A DNA stretch of 64,000 bases. Origin: Aquimarina macrocephali JAMB N27 (GTDB taxonomy: Bacteria; Bacteroidota; Bacteroidia; Flavobacteriales; Flavobacteriaceae). Where the stretch lies: contig NZ_JACA01000001.1 of assembly GCF_000520995.1 (NCBI RefSeq), positions 496,001 through 560,000 on the forward strand. The letters run 5' to 3'. The notes under the pieces were generated by a model. That model had not been told where the DNA came from. It ran no database searches and saw nothing but the letters and a program-made list of their open reading frames with translations. Position 1 is the stretch's first letter. Each line of letters opens with the position of its first letter. The position numbers and the translations under genes are program-made. This document shows positions 34,540-54,434 of this stretch, one piece after another.

Positions 34540-34603
34540 CAAACCTAGTATGGGTAAGAATATGTACTATCCGAAAAGTTTGAAATTCAAAGAATTCGGA
34601 CAT
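34540..34603 (-). promoter_or_regulatory. regulon site 1: 33-bp dyad plus -7 box
   Basis: Minus strand: GTCC-GAATTC-TTTGAATTTCAAA-CTTTTC-GGAT (35-nt block 34603-34569), 21 nt, then TAGGTTTG (34547-34540), 28 nt before the ATG of the collagen-like lipoprotein. The dyad covers the -33 region and there is no good TTTG there, as expected for an activator-dependent promoter. Confidence 0.8.
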
Positions 34604-34741
34604 TTTTTAAGGGGTTTGACTGTGTTTTTACTCTAAAAACACTTAGAGTACTTTAAATACTATACTTTTTCTATATAATTTAGATATTTATGTTGATGTA
34701 TGATGTATGATAATTGATGTAGTAAAAACTCTTTAGGTTCT

Positions 34742-35362
34742 TCAATCTTTACCTCTCATTTCTCTACATTCAATAACCTGTTTTACCTCTGCCTCTAAAC
34801 CATAGTTTTTCCATAAAGTCACATCCTTTTTTAGCTCTAATGCATTTTGACCAGACTGAATATATCTTTTAACGGATAGTAAAATAGGATCATTACTATC
34901 TTCTATTTTTAACATCGACTTTCCTCCCGGAATGCTATAATTATCTTCATACTCATAACAGAATACCAATACCTGATCATCTTTTTTTACATCTTGCTTA
35001 TAGAAGTAATCTGAAACAAAGAATTTCTGTTTACTATACGTATTCTTCTTAAGACCTCTTGAAGTTAATACTTTATCAATTTTTATAATTCCTTTTTGAG
35101 AAGTATACGCTCTATCATCATCCTCGACTGGTTTATCAATATGTTGAATAGTGCCTAAAAAAACGAATGCATATCTATCACCACAATTACCAATAAAAGG
35201 TCCTGATTGTGGCCACCAGTATGTATATCCAACCTTAAGCGTATCGGATACTTTAGGTGTCGATTGATCCTTTTTTATATCTATTTCTTTTTTCTGTGCA
35301 TAACTTGTACTACAAAAAAGAAAACCAAAAACTACTATCACTTTTGTCACTATATGGTACAT
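34742..35362 (-). CDS. secreted protein of unknown function
   Basis: A 206-residue protein with a signal peptide (VIVVFGFLFCSTSYAQ, cleaved about residue 22). The mature part has TYWWPQSGPFIGNCGDRYAFVFLGTI and a KKDDQVLVFCYEYEDNYSIPGGKSM segment; I recognise no family. It is the last of five closely spaced leftward genes (38814 to 34742), most with 5-60 nt gaps, and is likely co-transcribed. Confidence 0.7.
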   Translation of the reverse strand: MYHIVTKVIVVFGFLFCSTSYAQKKEIDIKKDQSTPKVSDTLKVGYTYWWPQSGPFIGNCGDRYAFVFLGTIQHIDKPVEDDDRAYTSQKGIIKIDKVLTSRGLKKNTYSKQKFFVSDYFYKQDVKKDDQVLVFCYEYEDNYSIPGGKSMLKIEDSNDPILLSVKRYIQSGQNALELKKDVTLWKNYGLEAEVKQVIECREMRGKD

Positions 35363-35387
35363 TTTTATTCTTAAATTTAATTCGTTT

Positions 35388-35858
35388 TTACTCTCCTAGA
35401 ATACGTTTAAATACTATTCCCTCTTTTTGATATATTATGATAAACGTATTACTTTCTTCTCTTTTATAGACTTCTGGTGTTGATTTTATTTCCCAGTTTT
35501 GCTTTCTATGGATAACTAAACTATTAGTCCAATCAGAAGTATATTCTTTAGCGTCAATTTTAGTAAAATCTGCGATCCAGTGCTTAACTTCTAACTGTTC
35601 TACTTTTATTGCAAACTGATAATCCCAAGATGATGGTCCAGGAATGCTTGTTATTCTAGAGTTAGTAAACCCATTTACATTAAACAATAAAAATTCGGCA
35701 TCATAAAACTCTGATTTGCTTACTATTTCTCTTTTCAGCATTGCTATTCTATCTTCTGCGCTTTCTGTTTCTATACTTGTAAGCGTATTGTTTTTATGTG
35801 AATTCACACAAGAAACAAGAACAAAGCATAAAACTATAATCTTATATACTGATCTCAT
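35388..35858 (-). CDS. lipoprotein of unknown function
   Basis: I start it at the ATG at 35858 (MRSVYKIIVLCFVLVSCVNS, a lipoprotein signal); a frame open to 35903 would add 15 residues ahead of it. The mature protein of about 140 residues has no recognised domain. It follows the neighbouring lipoprotein gene after only 5 nt, so they are surely one operon. Confidence 0.7.
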   Translation of the reverse strand: MRSVYKIIVLCFVLVSCVNSHKNNTLTSIETESAEDRIAMLKREIVSKSEFYDAEFLLFNVNGFTNSRITSIPGPSSWDYQFAIKVEQLEVKHWIADFTKIDAKEYTSDWTNSLVIHRKQNWEIKSTPEVYKREESNTFIIIYQKEGIVFKRILGE

Positions 35859-35863
35859 ACATG

Positions 35864-36325
35864 TTATTTTAACTCTTCTATAGAGGATATATATACCAAA
35901 CAAAATTCGGCATTAGCTTCTCCATATTCTTTTAATTCTGAAGATGTAACTAGAAACATTTCATTTCTAAACTCAAAAAAACCTTTCAGATCATATTCTT
36001 TGCCTCCACTGCTTCCTGGATTATCGGCAACAAAAGTTTCATAAAATATACTGATCCCGTTTTCCAATTCTGCATATTTTGAATATTGTTTTTTTGGGAT
36101 ATCCAAATTCATTTTTTTGATAGTAAAACCTTTATTATATCTTTTATCCGGATTTAAAATTACATTAACATAATTCTCTCCCTTAAATAGAGAGTGTTCC
36201 TTCGGAACCCAAATTCTAATATTTAATTCCTGTAATTCTAGTTTAACTAATTTCTCTTTATCACCTTTTGATTTACAACCAAATAGAACACCTATTAGTA
36301 TTAATGCAATGAATATTGATTTCAT
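35864..36325 (-). CDS. lipoprotein of unknown function
   Basis: Starting at 36325 gives MKSIFIALILIGVLFGCKSKG, a clear lipoprotein signal; the frame is open 17 codons further up but without a signal-like start. The mature part of about 135 residues is rich in Glu/Lys and includes ELNIRIWVPKEHSLFKGENYVN. No family recognised. It belongs to the same leftward operon. Confidence 0.7.
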   Translation of the reverse strand: MKSIFIALILIGVLFGCKSKGDKEKLVKLELQELNIRIWVPKEHSLFKGENYVNVILNPDKRYNKGFTIKKMNLDIPKKQYSKYAELENGISIFYETFVADNPGSSGGKEYDLKGFFEFRNEMFLVTSSELKEYGEANAEFCLVYISSIEELK

Positions 36326-36455
36326 TCTAAATATATGATAACTTCTCGTTGTGTACTCTGGTTTTTTTATAATCAAACAAATCTTGTTCTAGTTTTCTTT
36401 TTTCCGTTTAATTCTTTAACCAAATTAATCATTTTCATTTTAGTATGTCTGCGGA

Positions 36456-37400
36456 TTAATTAACGAATTCAAATGTATCTCCATTAAATTTAAAGGAATA
36501 GGCACATCTTTGGACTTTATTTTCTTTTCCATATGATTTAATAGCGTCTTCATCATCACAATAACAATCTGTTGATGCAGCATATTTTCTATTTGGTATA
36601 TATAAGACATCTATAACATGATTTATCTTGTCATACTTGATTGTATATTCATCCCCTTCATGAGCCAAAGAATGATTGAATTTATTAACAAGTTTGCCCT
36701 TATCATAAACATAAAGACTAATATGATCCATAAAGTTATTCCCTCGTACCTTATCATGCCCAATTAGTACATATTTGACTCCTGTACCAGTATTAATTGT
36801 ATCTATGGTATTATAGCTGTTTGGATAGAATTCATACAGGGTTTTCTTCTCTTTATCGACACGAATACTTTGATGTTCACTCCAATCAGAATCGTCATAG
36901 TACAGTATAGAAACTTGTTCTCTAAATAATACCCCAAATACCTTTGCGTCAAATGAAAAATGAAATAATTTATTGTCCTCTGATTTTACCATTTTAATCA
37001 AATCATCATCTAGCAATGCCATGATATCTTTCTTTGTAAATGTTTGGTGATTTATTATCTTTTGAAGGTTATCGATAATTCGATCTTTATAATACCTAAT
37101 GATAGAATATGCTATAATAGAATCTTTATCGGCTGACAAGTCTTCTCTATGATATGAATTCTTAATTTTATGAATCTCTTTGTTTGTTAGCCCAACATCA
37201 TTAAGAGCATAATACTCTTTATATTCTTGTAATTTATGATATTGCGATAAGTCATAATTTGTTTGTCTTACCAACTTTTCAAAATCACTTTGCGGAAACA
37301 CCATCATCATAGACACCACAATCATAGGAAGAGCCAAAGACCCAAAACATCTTTTTACCCATTGTTTTTTAGTGTTATAATTTTTTACTTTTTTATACAT
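36456..37400 (-). CDS. membrane-anchored or secreted protein of unknown function, parent of a nearby remnant
   Basis: A 314-residue protein with a basic N-terminus and one hydrophobic segment (GSLALPMIVVSMMMVF, about 20-36), then a Lys/Asp/Tyr-rich region and a C-terminal beta-rich part (KYVLIGHDKVRGNNFMDHISLYVYDKGKL; STDCYCDDEDAIKSYGKE). No known domain. A decayed copy of its central part (about residues 60-145) lies at 38895-39082, on the other side of the beta-helix gene, so this region was duplicated. It starts 40 nt after that gene's stop. Confidence 0.65.
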   Translation of the reverse strand: MYKKVKNYNTKKQWVKRCFGSLALPMIVVSMMMVFPQSDFEKLVRQTNYDLSQYHKLQEYKEYYALNDVGLTNKEIHKIKNSYHREDLSADKDSIIAYSIIRYYKDRIIDNLQKIINHQTFTKKDIMALLDDDLIKMVKSEDNKLFHFSFDAKVFGVLFREQVSILYYDDSDWSEHQSIRVDKEKKTLYEFYPNSYNTIDTINTGTGVKYVLIGHDKVRGNNFMDHISLYVYDKGKLVNKFNHSLAHEGDEYTIKYDKINHVIDVLYIPNRKYAASTDCYCDDEDAIKSYGKENKVQRCAYSFKFNGDTFEFVN

Positions 37401-37440
37401 TTATTTTTATGGGATCATTCTTTGTCAATTTAAAGACTAC

Positions 37441-38814
37441 TCATTCAAATTCGTAAGCTCCAATATCGACTGTAGCATTGAAAATCCTATTATTAAGCAG
37501 TATATCAGTAGAGATCACTCCGGCATTATTTCCTGTGTCAATACATGGTGATAGACTTTGTAACTTCAACCCATCATCATTAGTTCTCCAAATTCCATCA
37601 CTTCCCGGACCAATATCGATATTCGAAAATAATGGATTGGCATTAATATTTCCCGTTGTTGCACCCGCAATTATGTGCGGAGAAGTTTGTCCAATTAGAT
37701 CTATATCAGAATAGGTTGCTAAAACCTGTGCTCCTTGCCCTCGCACATAAAATTGTGGACTTATTTCTGTAGCGGTGTTACCCCAGACAATACAATTCTG
37801 TAAGGTTACTGTGCATGAACCAGAAGATGTGGTTCCGTTTTCATCTAAATTATCTGCTATAAAAGCTCCTCCATATCCATTAAGAGCTCTGTTATTGACA
37901 AATACACAATTAATCAATTGTGGATTACAATTTCCTCCCGGACCACCTCCCCAGGCATACATGGCTCCTACATTTGAGGCAGAAGTGTTTTCATAAAAAA
38001 TTGAATTAATAACTGTAGGACTCGCATTTCCTCGAACTCCGTAGCTATCCATACCTCCTGCTTCATTTAATGCATGATTTTGATAAAAAATACAATTTAT
38101 ATAAGTGGGTTCTGTATGTCCTCCATTATAACCATTATTGAAGGCTCCCGCACCAAAAGATGCTGTATTTTGAGTAAATAAGCAGTTTCGTATGATAGGG
38201 CTACAAAATCCGCCTGAGCCATATCCATGATTGTAAATACCACCACCTAGTCCGTTTCCACCAGATGTTGGTTGGCGGTCGTCATTACCGCCCTTAATTT
38301 CAAATCCATCTATAACTGCTGTATCATCCAGTTGTTCGTTATAAATTACAGTATAGCTATTATCGACCGCTCCTACAATACCAATTTCGCCGCTTAATAT
38401 ACTAGTAATCCCATTAGTCAAATTTCGCTCAGAAAGCATTGTCTCGGTGCCTGCAAAGCTTCCATAAATCGCTATACCATTTTTCATATTAAATGATATT
38501 GTTCTATCCGTAGTTGGGGTTGTAACATATACTCCTGTTGCTACCCAAACCTCATCACCAGTTTCTGAGACATCTATAGCATCTTGTAATGAGGTTCCTG
38601 GATAAGCGTTTTCCCAACTTGTTCCATCTAAGGCACCAGATCCTGTAGGGGTTACATAATGAATTATATCATCAGTACTCACTGGATCAATCGGAGCAGG
38701 AGGAGTATCACTTCCTGTGGTATCACTATCATTATTTTCTATAGTATCATCTTTTGAACAACTAATTAATAGCCCAAAAAACAACACAAAGCAAATACAT
38801 ATTGATTTTTTCAT
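37441..38814 (-). CDS. right-handed parallel beta-helix lipoprotein (choice-of-anchor-Q type)
   Basis: A 457-residue lipoprotein (signal ending FGLLISCSKDD). After an Asp/Pro-rich spacer comes VTPTGSGALDGTSWENAYPGTSLQDAID, the usual opening of pectate-lyase-like helices. Many short coils follow (NCLFTQNTASFGAGAFNN, NCIFYQNHALNEAGG, SIFYENTSASNVGAM, NCVFVNNRALNGYGGAF), and the end NNRIFNATVDIGAYEF is the choice-of-anchor-Q ending. No catalytic residues are evident; surface glycan binding or adhesion is likely. It is the first gene of the 38.8-34.7 kb operon. Confidence 0.85.
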   Translation of the reverse strand: MKKSICICFVLFFGLLISCSKDDTIENNDSDTTGSDTPPAPIDPVSTDDIIHYVTPTGSGALDGTSWENAYPGTSLQDAIDVSETGDEVWVATGVYVTTPTTDRTISFNMKNGIAIYGSFAGTETMLSERNLTNGITSILSGEIGIVGAVDNSYTVIYNEQLDDTAVIDGFEIKGGNDDRQPTSGGNGLGGGIYNHGYGSGGFCSPIIRNCLFTQNTASFGAGAFNNGYNGGHTEPTYINCIFYQNHALNEAGGMDSYGVRGNASPTVINSIFYENTSASNVGAMYAWGGGPGGNCNPQLINCVFVNNRALNGYGGAFIADNLDENGTTSSGSCTVTLQNCIVWGNTATEISPQFYVRGQGAQVLATYSDIDLIGQTSPHIIAGATTGNINANPLFSNIDIGPGSDGIWRTNDDGLKLQSLSPCIDTGNNAGVISTDILLNNRIFNATVDIGAYEFE

Positions 38815-38894
38815 TTTCTTGATCTTTTTAAATTCAACTAATACAGGTTTTCAATTATACTTCGATAAGTTCTGGTCATATCTAAGTTTTTAGC

Positions 38895-39082
38895 ATCTGA
38901 TTTTACCGTTTTAATCAAATTATCATCTAGCAATGCTGTGCTATCTTTTTTTTTGTAAAAGTTTGACGATTCGTTATCCTTTGACGGTTATTAAAAATCC
39001 TATCTTTATAATACCCAATAATAGAATCTTTATTGGTTGACAAATCCTCCCTATGATATGAATTTTTAGTCTTTTTGAATCA
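38895..39082 (-). pseudogene. decayed partial copy of the 36456-37400 gene
   Basis: About 190 bp match, with scattered substitutions, the stretch around 36976-37180 inside the gene at 36456-37400 (for example ATCATCTAGCAATGC, CTTTATAATACC, TAGAATCTTTAT, CTATGATATGAATT). The copy has lost about a dozen bases around ATAGAATATGCTATAATAG and has a T-run frameshift where the parent reads TTTCTTTGTAAATG. No open frame remains. It fills most of the 300-nt gap before the beta-helix gene. Confidence 0.8.
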
Positions 39083-39114
39083 TCTTAGAAACCGGTTTTG
39101 TGATTAGGCTTTAT

Positions 39115-39657
39115 TTAGTTCAAATGTATAATTGGAGGAGGAGGAGATAGTTCGAATGTTTTAGCATACTCTATAATACCATCTTTATATTCATACTTTA
39201 CTCCTTTAGAAAAAGGCCCTTCTGTACAAAAACTATACTTTGCCCCTTTTGGAATTCGGTGTATAGTAGTTTCAAAATTATAATTATTATTCATATCTAA
39301 AGGCTTCTCAATTTTGATAAAAAGCCCTTCAAGTTTAAGACCGTATTTATACAACATATAAAAACGATTATTCTTCCAAAAATTCAGGACTACATTAGAA
39401 ACAGGATAAACAACTTCAGGATAGTTTATTTCATCAAAAAAATCAGGTGATGGAGATTGCATTAACATCGGATTAGGAACCCCACGAGAATATCTGTTTC
39501 CTAAAGAATCAACTAATGTTACTTTTAGATCATCTACTATTTTATTATCGAATCTTACATCAATAATAATTAGAGTTGTCATATCATTTGCGCAATGTTG
39601 TCCATGTCCTATACCTGTTATAAATCCAAAAAAGACAAGTACTACAAATTTTTTCAT
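39115..39657 (-). CDS. secreted protein of unknown function
   Basis: A 180-residue protein with a signal peptide (VVLVFFGFITGIGHGQ). The mature part begins HCANDMTTLIIIDVRFDNKIVDDLKVTLVDSLGNRY, which could be a carboxypeptidase-regulatory-like beta sandwich, and ends in ELSPPPPIIHLN. No family assigned. It follows the SIMPL-domain gene by 21 nt and is likely in its operon. Confidence 0.65.
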   Translation of the reverse strand: MKKFVVLVFFGFITGIGHGQHCANDMTTLIIIDVRFDNKIVDDLKVTLVDSLGNRYSRGVPNPMLMQSPSPDFFDEINYPEVVYPVSNVVLNFWKNNRFYMLYKYGLKLEGLFIKIEKPLDMNNNYNFETTIHRIPKGAKYSFCTEGPFSKGVKYEYKDGIIEYAKTFELSPPPPIIHLN

Positions 39658-39678
39658 GTCTGATTTTTTTTAAAAGAA

Positions 39679-40287
39679 CTACTCCAAAACAAAAGTTACT
39701 TGTACATAATGTTTATGTAGTTCGTTAGGTTTAGCTGTATTAAAATATAAATATGATTTATTACTGGAAGTTTCTATTTTTTGGATGGCTCCAATCTTTT
39801 TATTGATACTAGTGGCTGTTATCTTGGCTCTATTCATCGCATCTTGTATTGCCATTTTATCCAATGCTGCAAGATCTGTATTGGTATTTTCCTCGGCAAA
39901 TATTTCTACCCAAGTAATTGTTACACCTTTCATTTGTTGTCCAAACATCTTTTCTACTTCTCCAAAAGATGTAGTTGTATAAGTATAATACGAAGTTGTA
40001 CGATACGTTAAAGCAGTGATTCCGTACAATTTATTTTGCTTAAACTCTTTAAAATCTATACCTATCTCTTTTATTTTATTTTTGTATTCTTCGATAATTT
40101 GAGATCTGCTTTTGGCTTCTATATTTTGATATCCATCAGCTACAAGATCTTTAAATTCTATATTAACAATATACTCCTTGATATCAACTTTTTTAGAAGC
40201 CTCGCCTCTTACTGTTATTGTATTATTTTGTTGCTGTCCAAAAATTGGAGCTGTACATAGTAATAATCCTATAATTAATTTCTTCAT
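39679..40287 (-). CDS. SIMPL-domain (DUF541) periplasmic protein
   Basis: I start it at 40287 (MKKLIIGLLLCTAPIFGQQ, signal peptide), not at an in-frame ATG 26 codons upstream. The 202-residue protein opens with NTITVRGEASKKVDIKEYIVNIEF, the SIMPL/DUF541 start (TVxGxAxxxVxPDxA pattern). The middle is long and helical, and the end ALDKMAIQDAMNRAKITATSINKKIGAIQKIE is also typical. Function of the family is poorly known. It lies 92 nt after the Kelch-like gene. Confidence 0.8.
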   Translation of the reverse strand: MKKLIIGLLLCTAPIFGQQQNNTITVRGEASKKVDIKEYIVNIEFKDLVADGYQNIEAKSRSQIIEEYKNKIKEIGIDFKEFKQNKLYGITALTYRTTSYYTYTTTSFGEVEKMFGQQMKGVTITWVEIFAEENTNTDLAALDKMAIQDAMNRAKITATSINKKIGAIQKIETSSNKSYLYFNTAKPNELHKHYVQVTFVLE

Positions 40288-40379
40288 GTTCTCATTTTTA
40301 TAAATTTGATGCGTACATTCGTCTAAATCGAAGCACAAAATTTTTGTATATTTTAGTATTCTCATTCTTTCTTCTTTTT

Positions 40380-41390
40380 TTATTCAAAAGACCAGATATC
40401 GGTATAAAAATCATAATAGTTTCCTTGATCCAAACCGTATCCATTAATGACCCATAATTTTTTATCGTAGTGTACAGATGTATGTTCTGTTCTTTCTGGA
40501 AAGTTTTTGGATACTTTTATTTGTGCCCAGGTTACACCATCGTTACTAAACCACACATCATTAAAATATTTAAAATCATTATTTCTGGTTCCTGCCGTTA
40601 ACCACATTCCTTTTTCGTTAACAGTTAATGAGTGACTTCTTCTTGGAAGGAAATCTGCATTTGATGTAGCAAGAAACCATTGAAAACCATTTGGAGAATA
40701 CCACACATCATTTAGAAAATTATTATTGATATCATAGCCACCAATAACCCAGATCTTATTATCATACACTACGGCCGCATGATCCCTTCGTTCTCCAAAA
40801 GGTGCCAGATTAGTCGCTAAATTCCATTTAACTCCATCACTGCTCACCCAAACATCTCCTTTTTCAACATCATTTTCATGACCTCCAATCACAAACATTC
40901 TTCCATTTAGATCTACCATAGCATGCCCGGATCGTGGTGAAAAAGAAGCATTACTGATAGCTTCTTTCCAAGTCTTGCCATCTGTACTATACCAAACATC
41001 ATTCATTTCATTAACAAAATTACCGCCTGTTATCCACATTTTGCCATTAGAAACTGTTGTAGCATGATTTGTTCTCTCTGAAAAAGCTGCATTTTTTGTA
41101 GCTGCAATCCAGTTGACTCCATCACTACTAGACCATGCATCGTTATAATAAATACCTGGTCCATTGCCCGCTATTACCCACATCTTTTTATCAAATATTA
41201 ATGAGGTATGATTAGCACGACCACCAAAAGAGGGTTTTTTGGTAACTAATGTAGATTTCAGTTTTTTCTTTGTTAGAGATAGCATCTTTGTAGATGTAGC
41301 TTCTACTTCTTCTATCTGATTGTCATCGGTGTCGCATGATAGCACTATCAAAGACAAAAATGCCAATATTATATATACATGTTTTTTCAT
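40380..41390 (-). CDS. Kelch-like beta-propeller lipoprotein
   Basis: A 336-residue lipoprotein (LSLIVLSCDTDDN at about residues 13-25) made of six near-identical units of about 48 residues (for example GERRDHAAVVYDNKIWVIGGYDINNNFLNDVWYSPNGFQW). Each unit has an R-x-x-H, a W-V-I-G-G core and a DVW-x-S segment, that is, Kelch-like blades. Six units would close a six-bladed propeller. Ligand unknown. Its promoter holds regulon site 2 (41492-41555), with an unusually long leader of about 95 nt. Confidence 0.85.
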   Translation of the reverse strand: MKKHVYIILAFLSLIVLSCDTDDNQIEEVEATSTKMLSLTKKKLKSTLVTKKPSFGGRANHTSLIFDKKMWVIAGNGPGIYYNDAWSSSDGVNWIAATKNAAFSERTNHATTVSNGKMWITGGNFVNEMNDVWYSTDGKTWKEAISNASFSPRSGHAMVDLNGRMFVIGGHENDVEKGDVWVSSDGVKWNLATNLAPFGERRDHAAVVYDNKIWVIGGYDINNNFLNDVWYSPNGFQWFLATSNADFLPRRSHSLTVNEKGMWLTAGTRNNDFKYFNDVWFSNDGVTWAQIKVSKNFPERTEHTSVHYDKKLWVINGYGLDQGNYYDFYTDIWSFE

Positions 41391-41491
41391 TTCAATTTGT
41401 TTTATTCTGTTTTAATAAAAACCTTTCAATCATTAACTATCTAATTATTTTTTTCATCGCTTTCATTGTTTAAATTTTAAAAGTTATATGA

Positions 41492-41555
41492 CAAATGTAG
41501 ATATAGGTTGCTTTTTAAATGTCCCATATATTTGATATTCAAAATATTCGGACAT
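41492..41555 (-). promoter_or_regulatory. regulon site 2: 33-bp dyad plus -7 box
   Basis: Minus strand: GTCC-GAATAT-TTTGAATATCAAA-TATATG-GGAC (block 41555-41521), 21 nt, then TACATTTG (41499-41492). The inner palindrome has changed at several bases while the outer GTCC/GGAC arms and the spacing are intact, which speaks for selection on the arms. Target: Kelch-like lipoprotein. Confidence 0.8.
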
Positions 41556-41556
41556 T

Positions 41557-41706
41557 TTACTTCTTAGGAACAGACTCTTTTTTCTTTAGAAATACGATCC
41601 CAACAATACGCCAATCACTTGAAACAGTTAATGCATCAAATAAAAAGTAGAAATATTGTTTCTCCTTTTTGACATGCTTAAAATGCCCTGAGCTATTTAT
41701 TTTATG
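41557..41706 (-). pseudogene. 3' coding remnant of an unidentified gene
   Basis: The minus strand has an open frame of 49 codons without a start codon, preceded by an in-frame TAA, with protein-like wording such as HFKHVKKEKQYFYFLFDALT and SDWRIVGIVFLKKK. It ends one base before regulon site 2. It looks like the C-terminus of a lost gene; I do not recognise the family. The rest of the 41391-41797 gap holds only the promoter described and AT-rich sequence. Confidence 0.4.
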
Positions 41707-41797
41707 TTATTCTTGTTATCAAATCAGGTTACGTTTTTAAATTATAGCTCTGTTTTATAGTTAAAATTTGCTCCAAAATATCCTAAGTGGTAAATCG

Positions 41798-42400
41798 TTA
41801 TCTATTTATATCAAAAATTTCTCCGGAATGATACATCTCTTTTAGCTTGCTCTTTGATATTCCATAGGACAATTCAGAATAGTTTTCGGGTTTATTAATT
41901 CTATATATTCTACTCTTTTTACTTATTTCATATTCATTTGGAGATACAAATACACTATCCTTCGAGACACTAATTACTTTTAATGTAGAATAGCTACTTG
42001 TTTCAATTTTGTATTCATATATGTCGCCATTTATAGGAGATGCTATATACTCCAACTCTAGCTTTTTATCTTCACCACTAGCATAACTACTCCAAGCAAT
42101 CAAAACTGCAATAATACCCAATCCTGAAAATTGCCATATAGGCCCTTTAGCTTTATTTTTCAAGTTATTGTACTCCCTTCTAATTGATTCTGACATCTCC
42201 TTAGTTTCAAGAACATTTTTACAATGCTGACACTGAGACATTCCTTTTTTACCAATTGGAAATAAAGGAATCCAGAAAATATGAGCATGTCTTCTGAATA
42301 CCTGTAACGTCAGAGAACCTTGAGTTCCACAACTTGGACAAATGGATGTTTTGGATTGTTCAGATTTTATATGAACTGCTTTACTTCCATAGATTATCAT
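41798..42400 (-). CDS. zinc-ribbon membrane protein of unknown function
   Basis: A 200-residue protein. Residues 1-62 are a zinc-ribbon of the kind CPSCG...FWIPLFPIGKKG...CQHC (two Cys pairs), familiar from small zinc-ribbon proteins. A single membrane segment follows (WQFSGLGIIAVLIAWSSYASG, about 92-112), then an outside domain of about 85 residues with no known family. The Cys pairs at the cytosolic side suggest a metal-binding or protein-contact module. Confidence 0.7.
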   Translation of the reverse strand: MIIYGSKAVHIKSEQSKTSICPSCGTQGSLTLQVFRRHAHIFWIPLFPIGKKGMSQCQHCKNVLETKEMSESIRREYNNLKNKAKGPIWQFSGLGIIAVLIAWSSYASGEDKKLELEYIASPINGDIYEYKIETSSYSTLKVISVSKDSVFVSPNEYEISKKSRIYRINKPENYSELSYGISKSKLKEMYHSGEIFDINR

Positions 42401-42488
42401 ACTCTTTTTCTTTTAATAATTTATAACAAAATGATTACTATAATATCTTTCTATAAAGGGGAATACAAATTTCAAAATTTCACAAAAC

Positions 42489-42507
42489 CTCAAGACATTG
42501 TCTTGAG
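42489..42507 (-). terminator. terminator of the second collagen-like lipoprotein gene
   Basis: CTCAAGAC-AAT-GTCTTGAG hairpin followed leftward by GTTTTG. It lies about 30 nt after the stop at 42538. Confidence 0.65.
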
Positions 42508-42537
42508 ATTTGTTTAAAGATGAACGTTCTAGGGGAA

Positions 42538-43167: not shown

Positions 43168-43195
43168 TTTTTGTTATTTTTAAAATTTTAGAGTA

Positions 43196-43259
43196 CAAAC
43201 CTAGTGAGAGCAAGAGTTTTGAATATCCGAAAAGTTTGAATTTCAATGAATTCGGACAT
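43196..43259 (-). promoter_or_regulatory. regulon site 3: 33-bp dyad plus -7 box
   Basis: Minus strand: GTCC-GAATTC-ATTGAAATTCAAA-CTTTTC-GGAT (block 43259-43225), 21 nt, then TAGGTTTG (43203-43196), 29 nt before the ATG of collagen-like copy 2. It differs from site 1 at only a few bases. Confidence 0.8.
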
Positions 43260-43322
43260 CTTAAATAGGTTTTGTCAAAATATGAGTATCATTCGTTTTT
43301 CTGGGAGTTCTTTCCTATCATA

Positions 43323-44184: not shown

Positions 44185-44260
44185 GAAAAATTCGTTTAGA
44201 TTAATTGTATTACTAATGATTATTAGCCGAGCTTTTAGAGGTATTGACAATAATATTTTA

Positions 44261-44800: not shown

Positions 44801-44898
44801 AATAACTCTTATTCAATACTAGTTTCCAGAGTTATTATTTATATCCCCATACATCCTAAATGTATTTTTCATAGCAATTATTTTCAATATTATGTAAT

Positions 44899-44962: not shown

Positions 44963-45050
44963 ATTTTAAGAGGTTTACCAAAAAACACTTCATGCTAAAT
45001 TGAAGAAAGTAAAATGTCTAGGTTTGAGTAGAAACTCTGATACTTGCTTT

Positions 45051-45371: not shown

Positions 45372-45394
45372 TTATCCTTAGCTAATCTGTTTTT

Positions 45395-46744: not shown

Positions 46745-46786
46745 TTCTTAAATATAAGTATTCTTGTTTTTTAATTATACCATGTT

Positions 46787-46833
46787 CAAAAAAAGGATCC
46801 TCATTACTGTTGTTAGGTTAGCTAATGAGGATC
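46787..46833 (-). terminator. strong terminator of the FN3/propeller lipoprotein gene
   Basis: Leftward, GGATCCTCATTA and TAATGAGGATCC form a perfect 12-bp stem around a 16-nt loop, followed by TTTTTTT, 72 nt after the stop at 46905. Confidence 0.88.
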
Positions 46834-46904
46834 CAGGGTAATGAAAAGCAATTGGACAAAAAAACCTAATCATTACGTTACTATTGTTATATGAGTATAC
46901 CTGT

Positions 46905-48485
46905 TTATTCTAGTTTTATAATCCAATAATTGAAATCGCCTGTTGTACCTTCGCCAGCCCCCATAATATTTGTATACCATGTTCCTGCAACGATATATCC
47001 ATTATCCGCAGTTTGTTGTATCGAAAATCCATAATCATCCCCAGGTCCTCCTAAACTCTCTTGCCAAATGATATTACCAAATGTATCTAATCTTAAAATC
47101 CAAAAATCTCTCGCCCCATTATTAGAAGTCAAGTCTCCATCTAATGAATTTGTACTACCAACAGCTATGTATCCTCCTCCTACTTCCTTAATTTCACCTA
47201 CTCCATCAGAACCAGAACCACCGAGTGTTTTCTCCCAAAGTAAGTCTCCAGTAACATTAAGCTTTATAATCCAGGCATCTGCAGATCCTTTATTTTCTCC
47301 TACATCACCATCTACAGATGTAGAATATCCTCCAATAATATAACCGCTATCTATGGTTTGTTCTACCGAAACGGCTTCTTCATTTTCAGATCCTCCTAAC
47401 GTTTTTTGCCAATCTAAATTCCCTGTATCATCTAATTTTGCAATCCACAAATCTCTTTTATTTTCTGTTGTTGTATACCCCGCTACAATGAATCCCAAAT
47501 CAATCGTTTGATCTATAGAACCCATAAAATCGTTCTCAGGTCCTCCAAGATTAGTCTCCCATACTAAATTTCCAGTTTCATCAAGTCTTACAATCCAGGC
47601 ATCAGCTTTACCATTATTTCCTGTAACATTTCCATTACCTGACAATGAAAAACCAACTGCTACATAACCTCCATCTGATGTTTGTTGAATAGATTCTAAA
47701 ATATCATCACTAGTACCTCCCAAGTTAGTTTCCCACACCAGATTTCCTGAGGCATTTAGTTTTACAATCCAAAAATCCCGCATTCCATTATTACCTCCAA
47801 CATCACCATCACTTGATGTAGAAAATGCTCCAACGATGTAACCTCCATCCATAGTTTGTTGTATCCCATGGATGGTCTCATTATTTGATCCTCCCAAGTT
47901 TGTTTCCCATTCTATATTTCCAAGGCTATCCAACTTTATAATCCAGCAATCTTTACCTCCTTTATTTCCTCCAACATCCCCATCTGTAGATTCTGATGAA
48001 CCTCCTATTATGTATCCGCCATCACTTGTTTGTTCTATCTCATATGCTTCATCATCAAATGTTCCTCCAAGGGATTTCTGCCATGCTATAGAAACTTCTT
48101 CATTGATGATCTCACCTCCCTCTGTTATAAAAGTAAAAGTATTTTCTGATTCATTCTCATTACCATCAGAAGCTACTACTTTACCATTATAATTAGTTTC
48201 AGCTATAAGACCTTCTAAAAGGAACTCTGTCGTTTCCAGATTTGACTGTACTTCGTTATCTCCCAGAAATACAGAATATGTCACTTTATCATCATCTGGG
48301 TCAACTGCCGCAGTCCATTCTAGTAATGCACTATTATCGGTTATCTGACTAACCTGTATTGTAAAATCTCCTGGTACCTGATTCTCGACAGACGCAGGTG
48401 GTATAACTTTATCGTCGTCGTTATTACATCCTACTATTGATAAGCAAAGGATAATTAAACTATACAAAAACGGTTGTTTTTTCAT
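46905..48485 (-). CDS. lipoprotein with fibronectin-III domain and seven-unit propeller-like repeat
   Basis: A 526-residue lipoprotein (LCLSIVGCNNDDD). Residues 38-125 form an FN3 domain (PGDFTIQVSQITDNSALLEWTAAVDPDDDKVTYSVFLGDN). Seven units of about 52 residues follow, each with ...QTSDGGYIIGG...DCWIIKLD-x-x-GN-x-x-W-x-x-x-LGG, ending NYWIIKLE. Seven units would suit a seven-bladed propeller. Similar repeats in this phylum occur in surface proteins of unknown ligand. Regulon site 5 lies in its promoter, and a strong terminator follows. Confidence 0.85.
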   Translation of the reverse strand: MKKQPFLYSLIILCLSIVGCNNDDDKVIPPASVENQVPGDFTIQVSQITDNSALLEWTAAVDPDDDKVTYSVFLGDNEVQSNLETTEFLLEGLIAETNYNGKVVASDGNENESENTFTFITEGGEIINEEVSIAWQKSLGGTFDDEAYEIEQTSDGGYIIGGSSESTDGDVGGNKGGKDCWIIKLDSLGNIEWETNLGGSNNETIHGIQQTMDGGYIVGAFSTSSDGDVGGNNGMRDFWIVKLNASGNLVWETNLGGTSDDILESIQQTSDGGYVAVGFSLSGNGNVTGNNGKADAWIVRLDETGNLVWETNLGGPENDFMGSIDQTIDLGFIVAGYTTTENKRDLWIAKLDDTGNLDWQKTLGGSENEEAVSVEQTIDSGYIIGGYSTSVDGDVGENKGSADAWIIKLNVTGDLLWEKTLGGSGSDGVGEIKEVGGGYIAVGSTNSLDGDLTSNNGARDFWILRLDTFGNIIWQESLGGPGDDYGFSIQQTADNGYIVAGTWYTNIMGAGEGTTGDFNYWIIKLE

Positions 48486-48602
48486 CTGTTTATCTTTTTT
48501 TGTGATCTATTTATGAAATATATTATCATTATTTAGCTTGCCATGAAATAGCAAACAGCTTAAGCAAATACCATGTTTGCAATCGTATAATACTTAGGGT
48601 GA

Positions 48603-48666
48603 TAAAATTAATTAGGGTGAAGTGTACGAATGTCCAGAAAGTTTGAATTTCAAAGAATCCGGACGT
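48603..48666 (-). promoter_or_regulatory. regulon site 5: 33-bp dyad plus -7 box, 5 nt beyond the GAF-AraC gene
   Basis: Minus strand: GTCC-GGATTC-TTTGAAATTCAAA-CTTTCT-GGAC (block 48666-48632), 21 nt, then TAATTTTA (48610-48603), a -7 box with the last base changed. The dyad begins 5 nt after the stop codon of the GAF-AraC gene and drives the FN3/propeller lipoprotein. Confidence 0.78.
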
Positions 48667-48671
48667 TTTTT

Positions 48672-49952
48672 TTAGGGGATTTTCCTGTATTCTTTTGGCG
48701 AGATACCAGTTAGTTTTTTAAAAGCACTGTAAAAAGTAGATTTCGAATTAAACCCAGATTCCAAAGCGATCGCTATAATGGTGTAGTTTATAAAATTAGG
48801 GTTTCTTAATTTAGATTTTGCATCCTCTACTCTATATCTATTTACATAATCGGTAAAATTATGCTCGCTCAATTTATTAACTAGTTGTGACAGGTAATTA
48901 CCACTTATGTTTAGTTTTTTGGCCATACTATCTAATCCCAGATTTTGATCTCGATATATTTTGGCTTCTTTCATTAAAAAATCAAGTTCCTTAAAATACA
49001 CATTATCATTTGTAATGTGGGATTCGTTTTTTATGTGAATTTGTTTTAGTTTTTTTCCAGTTAGCCTGGCAATTAAATGAAACAAAAACACATGATTGTT
49101 GCTAAAAAAATCTTTTTGAGAATGCTCAGAATCCAGAACTCCTACTACCTCATCATCGATAAAAATAGGAATAGACAATTCAGACATTCTATGATCATCG
49201 TCTATGATATACCCAGGATCATTAGTCACATCGGACACATACTCAAATATTCCTGATTGTGCCACTCTACCAACAATACCTTCTCCTAATGGGATTTGGA
49301 TAGGGCTTATGACTTTTCTTTCTCCATTATTTTTATGACCAAATGCTGCTTTTTGTATCAAAACCTTATTTTGGGTATCCAACATATAGATCACACAATC
49401 CTCTAGTTCTAGTTGCGAAATGCAATTCTCTACGATATCCCACAATACTTCTTCGAGCTTATTTTTTTCAAATAGTGATGATGCAAAATAGCTTAGTATT
49501 CCTATTGTTTCATTTGATGTATTTTGATGTTTTATATGTTCTTTTTCAGAAAAAATCTGATCCTGTCCATGTATACCAAAATTTGAAATTGAACTTCGTA
49601 TCAAATCTTTTTTACTCTTTACTTTATCAAACTCTGGTGTTAACTGTTTTGTAGTAGTAAATACACCATTATACGCTACGGCAAATACTTGATTAAAAAA
49701 AAGAGGTATCCTAAAATAGAAATTAGAAAAATTCTTTAGGACTATACTCGAAAAGAAAAAAGTAAATACCATGATAAGTAATACTATATTTAATACAATC
49801 AGCATTGTAAACATATGCCTTGTATTAAATAAGAAAACATCTGTACTTAGCATCTTATAACACATGGCCATAAAGAGAAATACAATCCCACATATTAAAA
49901 TTGCTGAAACCTTTATTGCTATTTTATCACCTATATATTTCTTGATATTCAT
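48672..49952 (-). CDS. membrane GAF-AraC transcription regulator (1)
   Basis: I prefer the ATG at 49952 because an ATG at 49979 would lie inside the -7 box. The 426-residue protein has two hydrophobic segments (KVSAILICGIVFLFMAM; MLIVLNIVLLIMVFTFFFSS), a GAF domain (about 150-290: ILSYFASSLFEKNKLEEVLWDIVENCISQ ... IPLGEGIVGRVAQSG ... LSIPIFIDDEVVGVLDSEH), and a C-terminal AraC-type HTH pair (LGLDSMAKKLNISGNYLSQLVNKL; YTIIAIALESGFNSKSTFYSAFKKLTGISPKEY). It likely binds DNA as a membrane-tethered dimer and senses a small ligand. Candidate target: the regulon dyads, one of which lies directly after it. Confidence 0.87.
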   Translation of the reverse strand: MNIKKYIGDKIAIKVSAILICGIVFLFMAMCYKMLSTDVFLFNTRHMFTMLIVLNIVLLIMVFTFFFSSIVLKNFSNFYFRIPLFFNQVFAVAYNGVFTTTKQLTPEFDKVKSKKDLIRSSISNFGIHGQDQIFSEKEHIKHQNTSNETIGILSYFASSLFEKNKLEEVLWDIVENCISQLELEDCVIYMLDTQNKVLIQKAAFGHKNNGERKVISPIQIPLGEGIVGRVAQSGIFEYVSDVTNDPGYIIDDDHRMSELSIPIFIDDEVVGVLDSEHSQKDFFSNNHVFLFHLIARLTGKKLKQIHIKNESHITNDNVYFKELDFLMKEAKIYRDQNLGLDSMAKKLNISGNYLSQLVNKLSEHNFTDYVNRYRVEDAKSKLRNPNFINYTIIAIALESGFNSKSTFYSAFKKLTGISPKEYRKIP

Positions 49953-49976
49953 GATGATTGATTTTTTTGTCCAATT

Positions 49977-50009
49977 CAAATATATACTGACAACACCTTT
50001 GAAAACAAA
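49977..50009 (-). promoter_or_regulatory. promoter of the first GAF-AraC gene
   Basis: Minus strand TTTG (50009-50006), 21 nt, then TATATTTG (49984-49977); ATG at 49952. A full match to the Bacteroidota consensus. Confidence 0.7.
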
Positions 50010-50153: not shown

Positions 50154-51887
50154 TTGAGCACAAAAAAGACATATCTCTTTTTCACTTTCTTTTATAAAAG
50201 GATAACTATTGTTTTTTTACTGTACTGTATACAAATTACTACGGGGCAGGAAGAAGATTTTGTAATTCCCGATTCTTTAAAAACCTTGGATTATGATAGT
50301 ATCTATAAAATCCATATGAAAACCTATAGAGATACTCTAATTTCAAAAACTTATTTATATACTTATTTAAAGAAAGCCATTTCAGAAAACAATACTCTAG
50401 AAATGGCTAAAGCCTATAGTTGGTTGTTTTATTATGCTGAAGAAGAATCGGAAAAAATAAGATTAATTGATCGCTCTATAGCTTTAAGTAAAAATTTAGA
50501 AGGTAATATCACAATTAAAGGATATTCTTTTAAAGGAGGATATTATTTAAATAATGGTCAGTATACTTTAGCATTAGATAATTATTTACAAGCATTAGCA
50601 TTAGCCGAAAAAGAAAATAGTACCGAATATATTTCTATTACCGAACATAATATTGCTTGTATTAAAACCGAAATAGGAAAGCATCAGGAGGCCTTACCTC
50701 TTTTTAAAGAAAACTTTACTCATATTATTACAAAACATGCTACTGATACGGTTCGATATTTAAATTCTATAATCCCTCTAGCAGAATCTTATCGCTATAA
50801 TAACCTTCTGGATTCTGCTTCAGTGTATCATTATAAAGCAATTAAACGATCTCAAAAACCGGAGCATTATTATAATAGGTTTTATGGCAGGGTTATCATT
50901 AATGAGGGTATCAATCTCTTCTATAAAGAGAAATTTAAGAACGCTTATGATAGCATTGCTAAGGGTATACCTATCCTTGATAAAACCCGATCTGAAAACA
51001 GAAAAGCATATATTTTGGGTGAGTTTTATTTGGGAAAACTACAGCTTCTAAAACAAGACGCCATAGCAGCTAAAAAACACTTTCTTACTGTAGATTCTAT
51101 CCTGCAAAAAGAAAAAATTACTCCCCTGGAAATTCGGGAAAGCTATGAGTTTATGATAAACTTTTATAAGACGAATCATAAAAAGGAAAAACAACTCGAA
51201 TATATCAACAAACTACTACAATTTGATAGCATCGTTAACCAGGAAGCTTCTTTTGTATCCTCGCGCTTATTCAAAGAATTTGATACTCCCTTATTATTAA
51301 AAGAAAAAGAAACCCTAATCAATGAACTAAAAGGGAATAATAAAAACCTAAACCTTTTAGTAGTTTTTCTCTCATTACTTACTCTTGTTGCCATTGCTTT
51401 TTTATATCGTCAATACCAAAAGAGAAAAACCTATCAGGAAAAATTTGAACAATTGATTGCTGAAGACAAGTTAGCCCAAACTATACAGAGGAAACAGCAA
51501 AGTGATAGTGATATTGGGGTGGCTGATGATATCGTTGAAGAAATTCTTAATAAGCTGGTCCTATTTGAACAAAATCATCATTATCTAAAAAAGAATATTA
51601 GCACTACCTCTTTGGCCAAAGACATTAAAACCAATACAAAGTATTTATCAAAAGTCATTAATCATCATAAACAAAAGAATTTTGCCAATTATATCAACGA
51701 TCTTAGGATTGCACATGCAGTAACCCAGTTAAAAGAAAACAAAACTCTTAAACACTATACTATACAGGGTATTGCAGAAGAAATGGGGTTTAATACCGCT
51801 GAATCTTTTTCATCTGCCTTTAAAAAGAGTACCGGTATCAAAACTTCTTATTTTATTAAGAAGCTACATGACTTAGATACTATGTAA
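50154..51887 (+). CDS. TPR-AraC transmembrane transcription regulator
   Basis: A 577-residue regulator beginning at a TTG (50154). A hydrophobic signal/anchor (TIVFLLYCIQITTGQ) is followed by a periplasmic region of tetratricopeptide repeats (residues about 60-370: GYSFKGGYYLNNGQYTLALDNYLQALALAEKEN). A membrane helix (LNLLVVFLSLLTLVAIAFLYRQY, near 410) and coiled coil lead to a C-terminal AraC-type HTH pair (ISTTSLAKDIKTNTKYLSKVIN; YTIQGIAEEMGFNTAESFSSAFKKSTGIKTSYFIKKL). This architecture is well known in Bacteroidota for sensing outside signals. It transcribes away from the GAF-AraC gene; family-2 palindromes lie on both sides of it. Confidence 0.87.
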   Translation: MSTKKTYLFFTFFYKRITIVFLLYCIQITTGQEEDFVIPDSLKTLDYDSIYKIHMKTYRDTLISKTYLYTYLKKAISENNTLEMAKAYSWLFYYAEEESEKIRLIDRSIALSKNLEGNITIKGYSFKGGYYLNNGQYTLALDNYLQALALAEKENSTEYISITEHNIACIKTEIGKHQEALPLFKENFTHIITKHATDTVRYLNSIIPLAESYRYNNLLDSASVYHYKAIKRSQKPEHYYNRFYGRVIINEGINLFYKEKFKNAYDSIAKGIPILDKTRSENRKAYILGEFYLGKLQLLKQDAIAAKKHFLTVDSILQKEKITPLEIRESYEFMINFYKTNHKKEKQLEYINKLLQFDSIVNQEASFVSSRLFKEFDTPLLLKEKETLINELKGNNKNLNLLVVFLSLLTLVAIAFLYRQYQKRKTYQEKFEQLIAEDKLAQTIQRKQQSDSDIGVADDIVEEILNKLVLFEQNHHYLKKNISTTSLAKDIKTNTKYLSKVINHHKQKNFANYINDLRIAHAVTQLKENKTLKHYTIQGIAEEMGFNTAESFSSAFKKSTGIKTSYFIKKLHDLDTM

Positions 51888-51891
51888 TTTA

Positions 51892-53206: not shown

Positions 53207-53341
53207 AAAATTTGTTTAAAAAGATTTATGTGATAAAAATTACCCGAACCTTTTTAAGACACCCGGGTTTATGTCTACTCTTGCAAGAATGTTTTAGAAA
53301 ATTAAATGTGCTTTGAGGGTTCGGATCATATCCATTTTGAT

Positions 53342-53380
53342 AAAAAAGCAGCAAGAGAATCAAAAGTTTCTACCTGCTGC
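53342..53380 (-). terminator. terminator of the second lipoprotein paralogue
   Basis: Leftward, GCAGCA...TTTCT / AGAA...TGCTGC form an interrupted stem, followed by TTTTTT. It lies 82 nt after the stop at 53463 and separates the two paralogues. Confidence 0.65.
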
Positions 53381-53462
53381 CTACCAAACCATCATTTCAA
53401 ACTGCTGAATTACTAGCTAATAAAATTCTCATTATAAAATCATAATTCCTGTGCTAACAATT

Positions 53463-54266
53463 TTATTTCGAGTTTCGAAAATCAGTATACCCTTTCCAAT
53501 ACAAATATTCTGTTCCAAGGCCAGTTGATTCATTAACCCCACTACGTGCTGCTCTTCTGTATCTTTTCATTTTTCCCGGTATTGCTAATCTTTTCCACCT
53601 TCCGGGATATACCTTGTATTTCCCTTTGGTGTGTGTCACCCATCCTCCAGATGCTTTTCTATATCTATGTCTTACTTCCATATACTTCCCTTCATTGTAT
53701 GATTCTTTAAACACAGAGGTATAATTTTCCATTGTTTTACATCGACTACTAGATGTAATATTAGACACTTTACTTTTTTCTCGGTTATAACAATAATTAT
53801 AGCTCTCAGGAATATTATCACAAAAATCTGCTTTATTATTACTCTTCATTTTAAGTGTTTCAGGTATTTTTTCAACACTAAAATTTAGTGCCGTATCAAA
53901 ATCCTTAACAACACTTCTATGATGCAAATGGTCTTTGTCTTTTGAGATGTCTGCAATTATTTTAGGGAGAGGAGAATCATCAGGAGTTAACTTGAGATAT
54001 ATATCTAATATAGAATTAGAGTCAAAATCTATGAATTCTATATTTTTATTTGACCCAGATTCGATAGCTAAGATAACCGGGGCTCCTTCTTCATCACTTT
54101 CAATTAATTGTAGCGTATTGCCATTAGAGAATGTAAAGATCGCTAATTCTTCATTTTTATTTTCCTGTAGTGTTTCATTATTAACTCTCTCACAAGAGAA
54201 TGTTGCAAATGCCAAAAGCGAAATGTATTCGATTAGTCCGATTCTTGTAGGGATAAGATTTTTCAT
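53463..54266 (-). CDS. lipoprotein of unknown function, basic C-terminus (paralogue 2)
   Basis: A 267-residue paralogue of the 52421-53206 protein. Signal with SLLAFATFSCERV; then ELAIFTFSNGNTLQLIESDEEGAPVILAIESG, FIDFDSNSILDIYLKL, PETLKMKSNNKADFCDNI, the VSNITSSSRC patch and the basic, aromatic end (RYRKASGGWVTHTKGKYKVYPGRWKRLAIPGKMKRYRRAARS). Its promoter carries regulon site 6 and its leader an unusual terminator-like hairpin. Its function is unknown; the conserved SSSR patch and basic domain could bind a polyanion. Confidence 0.72.
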   Translation of the reverse strand: MKNLIPTRIGLIEYISLLAFATFSCERVNNETLQENKNEELAIFTFSNGNTLQLIESDEEGAPVILAIESGSNKNIEFIDFDSNSILDIYLKLTPDDSPLPKIIADISKDKDHLHHRSVVKDFDTALNFSVEKIPETLKMKSNNKADFCDNIPESYNYCYNREKSKVSNITSSSRCKTMENYTSVFKESYNEGKYMEVRHRYRKASGGWVTHTKGKYKVYPGRWKRLAIPGKMKRYRRAARSGVNESTGLGTEYLYWKGYTDFRNSK

Positions 54267-54294
54267 GTTAGTTAGTTTTTTAAATATTTGAAAA

Positions 54295-54332
54295 AGGTGA
54301 GTATATTTTAAGGGTTTAAAACCTACTCACCT
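54295..54332 (-). promoter_or_regulatory. terminator-like hairpin in the leader of the 53463-54266 gene
   Basis: Leftward, AGGTGAGTA and TACTCACCT form a perfect 9-bp stem around a 20-nt loop, followed by TTTTTC, 28 nt before the ATG and after the promoter. It can act as an attenuator, or it may be the leftover terminator of a lost gene. Confidence 0.55.
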
Positions 54333-54370
54333 CATACACAAACTCAACTGTATAAAATACAAGTGAGATG

Positions 54371-54434
54371 CAATTCTAATAACATTAAAAAATATAAGTG
54401 TCCTTAAAGTTTGAATTTCAAGAAATCAGGACAC
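54371..54434 (-). promoter_or_regulatory. regulon site 6: 33-bp dyad overlapping the stop of the second GAF-AraC gene
   Basis: Minus strand: GTCC-TGATTT-CTTGAAATTCAAA-CTTTAA-GGAC (block 54434-54400), 21 nt, then TAGAATTG (54378-54371), a -7 box with one mismatch. The left arm lies inside the last codons of the GAF-AraC gene, whose TGA is at 54428-54426. Target: paralogue 2 lipoprotein. Confidence 0.75.

Follow-up and report, generated by a model that had tools for sequence, protein, structure and literature searches.

A 33-bp inverted repeat at lipoprotein promoters of Aquimarina: a probable operator of GAF-AraC regulators

Six leftward genes in a 64,000-nucleotide stretch of the 6.06-Mb genome of Aquimarina macrocephali JAMB N27 (contig C1, 496001-560000; hereafter the window) carry similar 33-bp dyads in their promoter regions, and the locus raises the question of what these dyads do and which protein reads them. 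We conclude that the dyad is very probably an inverted-repeat operator, bound by a dimer of a protein with a GAF and an AraC-type domain that activates surface-lipoprotein promoters. The regulator likely belongs to the GAF-AraC family encoded twice in the window, by regulator A, regulator B or both.

The pattern GTCC-N6-TTTGAAATTCAAA-N6-GGAC, allowing up to three mismatches, gave 12 matches in the window, which are six sites read on both strands, and none in 100 dinucleotide shuffles. The sites begin where a preliminary description of the window had placed them; the ends given there lay two bases too far, each dyad being 33 bp long. That description had also held the outer arms to be exactly symmetric in four of the six, and on the gene strand they are indeed GTCC/GGAC at four sites and GTCC/GGAT at two (34569 and 43225). 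The dyads located by this pattern search are:

34569-34601, minus strand: candidate operator dyad 1 (GTCC...GGAT), before the collagen-like lipoprotein gene at 33880-34512
41521-41553, minus strand: candidate operator dyad 2
43225-43257, minus strand: candidate operator dyad 3 (GTCC...GGAT)
44928-44960, minus strand: candidate operator dyad 4
48632-48664, minus strand: candidate operator dyad 5, starting 7 nt past the stop codon of regulator A
54400-54432, minus strand: candidate operator dyad 6, which shares its first 7 bases with the 3' end of regulator B, stop codon included

Mean pairwise identity among the six sites is 0.80 in the dyad, as against 0.38 in the 40 nt before it, 0.43 in the 21-nt spacer that follows and 0.35 in the 40 nt past the -7 box described below, so the flanks are not copies of one another, in line with the earlier view that the dyads are unlikely to be hitch-hiking copies of one duplicated gene. 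The two collagen-like paralogues have 0.57-0.60 identity in the spacer and in the 40 nt past the box. A random or repeated-element origin was rejected: the sites have dissimilar flanks, and of those with no more than one mismatch almost all occupy one promoter position.

Searches beyond the window used the core pattern TCC-N6-TTTGAAWTTCAAA-N6-GGA, with the reversed pattern as a control. The A. macrocephali genome has nine sites with no or one mismatch, none with two and eleven with three (reversed control, 4). The nine comprise the six window dyads and three more, at C1:596849, C15:52745 and C40:79017. The motif is thus not scattered at random, the nine sites being set apart from the rest by a clear gap. 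A regulon of six sites had been proposed; the six are real, and the genome holds nine, one of them before a gene for a GG-leader peptide. Among 52 Aquimarina genomes, 33 contain a total of 143 sites with at most two mismatches (72 with none, 45 with one and 26 with two). Nine of the 143 have no -7 box at up to two mismatches (eight with two motif mismatches, one with one) and resemble chance matches. Counts on 116 sites, given below, refer to the 117 sites with at most one mismatch less a single box-less site (in genome G332).

Read on the gene strand, all six window dyads have TANNTTTG, with at most one change, exactly 21 nt further on. The spacing at the three additional sites is 21, 20 and 21 nt, and the Bacteroidota sigma-A -7 box TANNTTTG was found at all nine sites of the genome (0-1 change, 20-21 nt from the dyad). 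In the window the boxes lie as follows:

34540-34547, minus strand: putative -7 box TAGGTTTG, 21 nt past dyad 1 (position derived)
41492-41499, minus strand: putative -7 box TACATTTG, 21 nt past dyad 2
43196-43203, minus strand: putative -7 box TAGGTTTG, 21 nt past dyad 3
44899-44906, minus strand: putative -7 box TACTTTTG, 21 nt past dyad 4
48603-48610, minus strand: -7-like box TAATTTTA (one change), 21 nt past dyad 5
54371-54378, minus strand: -7-like box TAGAATTG (one change), 21 nt past dyad 6

Over the 143 sites of the genus, an exact TANNTTTG occurs at offset 21 in 60 cases (34, 18 and 8 for sites with 0, 1 and 2 mismatches), compared with means of 0.13, 0.05 and 0.05 for any other offset. 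With one mismatch allowed in the box, 109 of the 117 sites having at most one motif mismatch carry it at offset 20-22. A scan for E. coli-type sigma-70 promoters, uninformative for Bacteroidota, found 72 where 83.2 were expected.

In Flavobacterium psychrophilum the -7 box lies at -12 to -5, according to excerpts of the paper that also gives the Bacteroidota box consensus (PMC9723704), and the dyad would therefore span approximately -66 to -34, with its centre at -50, about the position of an activator. The conserved blocks of the dyad fall at positions 1-4, 11-13, 21-23 and 30-33. An AraC subunit touches the major groove twice in succession, at points about 10 bp apart; the blocks have about this spacing and would fit two inverted AraC subunits with two helix-turn-helix (HTH) motifs each. 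The N6 spacers differ consistently, the left being GAATTC and the right, as reverse complement, GAAAAG, so that the complex is probably oriented towards the promoter.

From these sequence comparisons we infer binding, dimerisation, the assignment of HTH motifs to blocks, and activation over repression. A dimer of A and/or B would bind two inverted 16-bp half-sites (GTCC-N6-TTTGAA). The contact blocks GTCC, TTT, AAA and GGAC recur about every 10 bp, so that each turn of the helix presents one of them on the same face of the DNA. In each subunit, the outer arm would be read by the second HTH and the inner block by the first. Because the operator ends at about -34, at the would-be -33 element, the dimer, once bound, would probably bring sigma-A RNA polymerase to the -7-box promoter (class II-type activation). 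The regulator would in this way turn on together a set of mostly surface-exposed lipoproteins, of which the commonest are collagen-like, and the Aquimarina operator would have spread to unlinked lipoprotein genes and to the GG-leader peptide gene.

The same placement bears on an improbable alternative, namely that the dyad is the GAF-AraC operator but the protein represses, blocking the promoter until a signal releases it. The proximal arm does abut the -33 region, and a dimer bound there could also stand in the way of polymerase. However, the dyad replaces the -33 element without overlapping the -7 box or the start, and its distance from the box is fixed to the base, as expected for polymerase contact. 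AraC-family proteins bound just upstream of a core promoter, moreover, mostly activate.

Activation by a GAF-AraC protein draws attention to the two candidate genes, which end at dyads 5 and 6:

48672-49979, minus strand: regulator A, GAF and AraC (HTH_18) domains, 435 amino acids, two predicted hydrophobic helices
54426-56129, minus strand: regulator B, GAF and AraC (HTH_18) domains, 567 amino acids, about five predicted hydrophobic helices, a paralogue of A

The AraC-type domain with its two HTH motifs is complete (HTH_18 profile positions 1-79 and 2-80 of 80; 69.8 and 69.0 bits, cut-off 33.6). A family search of both proteins at E<=0.01 returned only GAF and AraC, plus a sub-threshold TFIIE_alpha match in A. 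The hydrophobic helices were predicted by a simple hydropathy scan; eight of 15 homologues outside Aquimarina have none, so GAF plus AraC would be the conserved core, with a membrane part that varies. A and B have the same recognition-helix letters, Asn..Ser, which suggests that they are two inputs on one regulon. Among named genomes, relatives of the regulator were found on six contigs, four from Aquimarina and the others from metagenome-assembled genomes of a 'Bacteroidia' member and of Croceivirga; the relative in Aquimarina sp. Aq78 has 94% protein identity, and the Croceivirga homologue has a four-mismatch version of the dyad at the same place. The closest solved sequences are 3oou (Lin2118), 3lsg (YesN) and 7w5w (SoxS) for residues 340-434 of A (the AraC domain), and 3ksg and 3e0y for residues ~164-313 (GAF). 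The similarity to these structures is at the level of single domains (best E 1.4e-12), and the combination of GAF and AraC occurs in no solved structure.

Regulator and site co-occur across the genus. A GAF-AraC regulator (E<1e-90) is present in 29 of the 52 Aquimarina genomes; 28 of these carry one or more sites (up to two mismatches) and 26 carry two or more. Five of the 23 genomes without the regulator have one match each, and none has two or more (26/29 vs 0/23 for at least two sites; Fisher p=1.5e-11). Four of the five single matches resemble chance, with no box at up to one mismatch at offset 20-22, or with poor symmetry. The dyad (up to two mismatches) lies at the regulator stop codon in 41 of 56 homologue rows, which include duplicate records of the same genome.

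The association extends beyond Aquimarina. In a scan of 299 genomes of the family for the motif alone (up to one mismatch), four genomes outside Aquimarina had matches, and two of these matches (G096 and G129) adjoin a GAF-AraC gene. The regulator itself (E<=1e-70) was found in 17 of 397 family genomes, two from Aquimarina and 15 from 14 other genera. All 15 other-genus loci have the composite of dyad, 21 nt and box (up to two mismatches), the dyad being diverged. At ten loci, among them G288, it is close to the stop codon (offsets -29 to +15); at the other five it is found 187 to about 860 bp downstream. The gene that follows encodes a collagen-like lipoprotein at 11 of the 15 loci, a secreted protein of one type at three and another lipoprotein at one. 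Exact composites occur in eight of the 397 genomes, all of which belong to the 17 regulator-bearing genomes (Fisher p=1.7e-12); with one mismatch allowed, the figures are 13/17 for regulator genomes and 17/380 for the others. The composite pattern was drawn after the regulator loci had been viewed, so matches there are not independent, while the absence of exact matches from the 380 other genomes is. In G001 a second, unlinked site likewise precedes a collagen-like lipoprotein gene. At the loci with the non-lipoprotein secreted protein (L171, L173 and L175), the one protein tested, that of L171, has BTRD1 repeats and a beta-lactamase-fold domain.

By these comparisons, the window motif represents a single specificity within a broader class of dyads associated with AraC genes. 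AraC genes that resemble A only in the HTH region likewise end close to a dyad (offsets from the stop codon about -14 to +13), in different letters, followed by the box and mostly by lipoprotein genes. A dyad near the stop was significant at shuffle p<=0.01 for 16 of 21 distinct non-GAF AraC genes, and at that threshold none was found for L222, L226, L227, L233 (p=0.023) and L234. One such form, GTTC...GAAC with the box, has seven matches in the 52 genomes, each directly 3' of an AraC gene and before a lipoprotein-like open reading frame (ORF); the pattern was drawn after four of the seven had been viewed (G000, G302, G313 and G323), and the new ones are in G318, G338 and G341. The one target of this form that was tested has a peptidase S41 domain. 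Taking 82 regulators together, 60 have a stop-proximal dyad, a proportion biased upward by loci chosen for the motif; control windows further downstream of the same genes gave 7/760.

The arms of these dyads vary with the protein encoded next to them. Symmetric TCC/GGA arms pair with Asn..Ser in the second recognition helix (F-N-S-K-S) in 42 of 42 cases, and symmetric TTC/GAA arms with Lys..Thr or Ser..Thr in seven of seven, as predicted if the second HTH reads the outer arm directly. A TTT/AAA row with Asn..Ser (L193) was set aside as a wrong pick, the real dyad lying 275 bp downstream.

Several observations weigh against an exclusive link between the dyad and GAF-AraC proteins, or against the counts that argue for it. 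G313 has a perfect dyad and no GAF-AraC orthologue, and G309 holds a regulator homologue and no site. Fifteen of the 56 homologue rows have no site abutting the regulator, although most are second copies or fragments. The reversed control pattern (up to two mismatches) matches 20 of the 52 genomes once or twice, and single matches therefore mean little. The 82 regulators include ten with asymmetric arms and 22 without a dyad near the stop codon, and the counts for arm and helix take no account of kinship, so shared descent could contribute to them. Finally, other AraC-type proteins with similar HTH motifs could bind the same dyads. The perfect dyad of G313 (L167, C9:116949) precedes a gene for a 159-residue lipoprotein.

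The last of these points leads to a second alternative, which we consider somewhat less probable than repression: another DNA-binding protein, either the TPR-AraC protein encoded at 50154-51887 or some other AraC-type protein, would regulate these promoters, and the GAF-AraC gene would be a neighbour by chance or history. It is favoured by the position of the TPR-AraC gene in the cluster, divergent from regulator A, by the perfect G313 site and by the roughly 50% identity among HTH motifs of this AraC clade. Against it, the dyad accompanies GAF-AraC genes in 14 other genera and its arms track the recognition helix of the neighbouring protein. As for the TPR-AraC protein, it was set aside as the regulator: close syntenic orthologues (at least 61% identity) are listed in 10 of the 52 genomes, compared with 28 that have both sites and GAF-AraC.

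That the dyads are instead RNA hairpins, acting as terminators or 3'-end elements of the upstream gene, is very improbable. In favour of hairpins, a co-directional gene ends just before many of the dyads, the 33-mers fold with a mean energy of -9.4 kcal/mol against -2.5 kcal/mol for shuffles, and 14-16 of 16 arm positions pair in 17 of 116 sites. Against them, only 10-13 pair in 97 of 116, the N6 spacers differ systematically (GAATTC against GAAAAG), the dyad keeps a constant distance from the -7 box, 14 sites have a divergent FeoA-like gene as their other neighbour, and no Rfam family matches 30000-60000 at the gathering threshold. The co-directional count (106/116) is too high, since the ORF cut-off missed small divergent FeoA genes. 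A terminator scan of 34000-50000 gave nine terminator-like sites, none of them among the five dyads there, which do not combine a G+C-rich hairpin with a T run; dyad 6 lies outside the scanned region.

The genes that a GAF-AraC activator would control in the window are the following:

33880-34512, minus strand: collagen-like lipoprotein, 210 amino acids (CSDGEDG...GTANVIYSDWI); Pfam Collagen 29.2 bits, cut-off 27.2, and alignment
40380-41390, minus strand: Kelch-repeat lipoprotein, 336 amino acids; Pfam Kelch families over cut-off
42538-43167, minus strand: second collagen-like lipoprotein, 209 amino acids; Pfam Collagen 28.4 bits, cut-off 27.2; 42% identity to the first
44261-44800, minus strand: lipoprotein with a weak M23-like stretch, 179 amino acids; Pfam Peptidase_M23 26.0 bits, below the cut-off of 28.7
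46905-48485, minus strand: FN3/propeller-like lipoprotein, 526 amino acids; Pfam fn3 36.3 bits, cut-off 25; propeller matches weak
53463-54266, minus strand: putative lipoprotein, 267 amino acids; lipobox-like N terminus by eye

All six have a lipobox-like N terminus, judged by eye, as the preliminary description had stated; the weakest is that of the 53463-54266 product (..ATFSC), which had no match in Pfam or NCBIfam. The domain assignments of that description stand for the two collagen-like proteins and for the Kelch and FN3 proteins, all with Pfam matches over cut-off, the propeller part being weak; the M23-like label of 44261-44800 is reduced to a weak, sub-threshold stretch.

Elsewhere in the genome the sites precede genes for lipoproteins of 159 and 256 amino acids and, at C40, for the 51-residue GG-leader peptide, which passes the NF047798 and TIGR01847 cut-offs; eight of the nine targets are thus lipoprotein-like. 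In the C40 locus (L024, dyad at 9018-9048), the bacteriocin-like peptide (MKNLKNFKKLDRKELSKINGG...) is encoded directly downstream on the plus strand, and no same-strand ORF of at least 100 codons follows it within L024. A GG-leader peptide is also encoded past a dyad in G300 and G302.

Genus-wide, a permissive lipobox pattern is matched by an ORF downstream of 109 of 116 oriented sites (up to one mismatch). The pattern accepts any fitting ORF starting within 420 bp of the site; in at least two cases (G342 C5:65696 and G348 C1:898719) that ORF is about 400 bp away. Two or more D/E residues at +2 to +8 are found in 99 of the 109. With a stricter pattern, used as a control, a lipoprotein ORF was found on at least one side of 99 of the 117 sites and on exactly one side of 95. 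The seven exceptions to the permissive pattern are three GG-leader peptides, a 485-residue ORF with an ordinary signal peptide by eye (G308), a site whose nearest listed ORF is 246 nt from the dyad (G331 C2:948027), an acyltransferase-like membrane protein by eye (G341 C203) and a lipoprotein-like ORF (IHAC) that fails the pattern (G331 C2:944832).

We call the targets surface proteins because their N termini resemble a published lipoprotein export signal. The F. johnsoniae consensus is SDDFE (PMC5080379); N termini such as CSDGEDG, CNNDDD and CKDDDD approximate it, the lipid-anchored cysteine being followed first by a polar residue and then by acidic ones. We infer that most are surface-exposed. 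All seven aligned collagen-like lipoproteins share a conserved C-terminal region behind the collagen repeats (GTANVIYSDWI ... RYVIIPGG), and Pfam gave nothing besides Collagen for the two in the window. An AlphaFold model from the seven-row alignment was too poor to use (mean pLDDT, predicted local distance difference test, 45.6).

Among neighbouring genes, a FeoA-like gene diverges from a lipoprotein gene or similar ORF at 14 of the 143 dyads, with the dyad between them (L148 and 13 other loci; Pfam was run on one), which hints at a link with iron. The TPR-AraC (HTH_18) gene at 50154-51887, on the plus strand, belongs to a large paralogous group in the genus. Divergent from regulator B is a pair of genes for a TonB-dependent receptor and a SusD-like protein (56707-61251, plus strand); the pattern search of the window found no dyad between B and this pair.

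The closest described systems differ in several respects. Bacteroides hybrid two-component systems (HTCS), as presented in excerpts of PMC3878776, likewise use an AraC-type DNA-binding domain, often on a membrane-anchored sensor, half-sites of 14-16 bp, and a regulon of outer-membrane or surface proteins lying partly next to the regulator gene. In the same excerpts, HTCS proteins carry a periplasmic sensor, histidine kinase and receiver and their motifs are direct repeats with a spacer, whereas A and B have GAF and AraC only and the half-sites of the dyad are inverted. A and B do not join a histidine kinase and a receiver in one chain. Activators of the RhaS/RhaR type, also of the AraC family, bind inverted repeats next to the -35 region; as here, two half-sites of about 16-17 bp face each other in inverted orientation, and the proximal half-site adjoins the core promoter. 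Unlike the RhaS/RhaR half-sites, which are separated by a long spacer, those described here meet at the dyad centre, the promoter is of the Bacteroidota sigma-A type, and the sensor is a GAF domain with or without membrane helices. NCBIfam matches of the regulators to RhaS, RhaR, MelR and others are far below the cut-offs.

A literature search, with poor coverage of subscription papers and preprints, found no description of the motif or regulon, in line with the earlier statement that none was known; PMC11253607 had no match to repeat terms. AraC-type activation is well known, and it is this operator, its promoter geometry, the regulator-target cassette and the regulon that appear to be undescribed. 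The earlier suggestion of an undescribed regulon of surface-lipoprotein promoters is thus supported at the level of sequence, by nine sites genome-wide, their promoter position and a candidate regulator.

To our knowledge, how non-gut Bacteroidota choose among their surface lipoproteins is poorly understood. The analysis supplies a genome-searchable candidate operator (33-bp dyad, 21 nt and -7 box) with a named regulator family, a list of putative targets (collagen-like, Kelch, FN3/propeller and other lipoproteins, and a GG-leader peptide) and a two-residue specificity rule open to mutational testing. It would also add an inverted-repeat operator type to a phylum in which the AraC-type motifs that we found described, those of HTCS, are direct repeats. 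More broadly, and here the case seems to us evenly balanced, flavobacteria may carry many modular cassettes, each made up of an AraC gene, an inverted-repeat operator that starts no more than about 15 bp from the stop codon of that gene, a promoter spaced at a constant distance, and a gene for a surface lipoprotein or secreted protein. Two residues of the second recognition helix would suffice to predict the operator letters of each cassette, so that specificity could diverge from one cassette to the next. In Aquimarina, one such cassette would have grown into a regulon acting in trans. With its two sensor paralogues, as many as nine promoters and a GG-leader peptide in three genomes, it would form a coordinated switch for surface remodelling, possibly tied to a secreted peptide signal.

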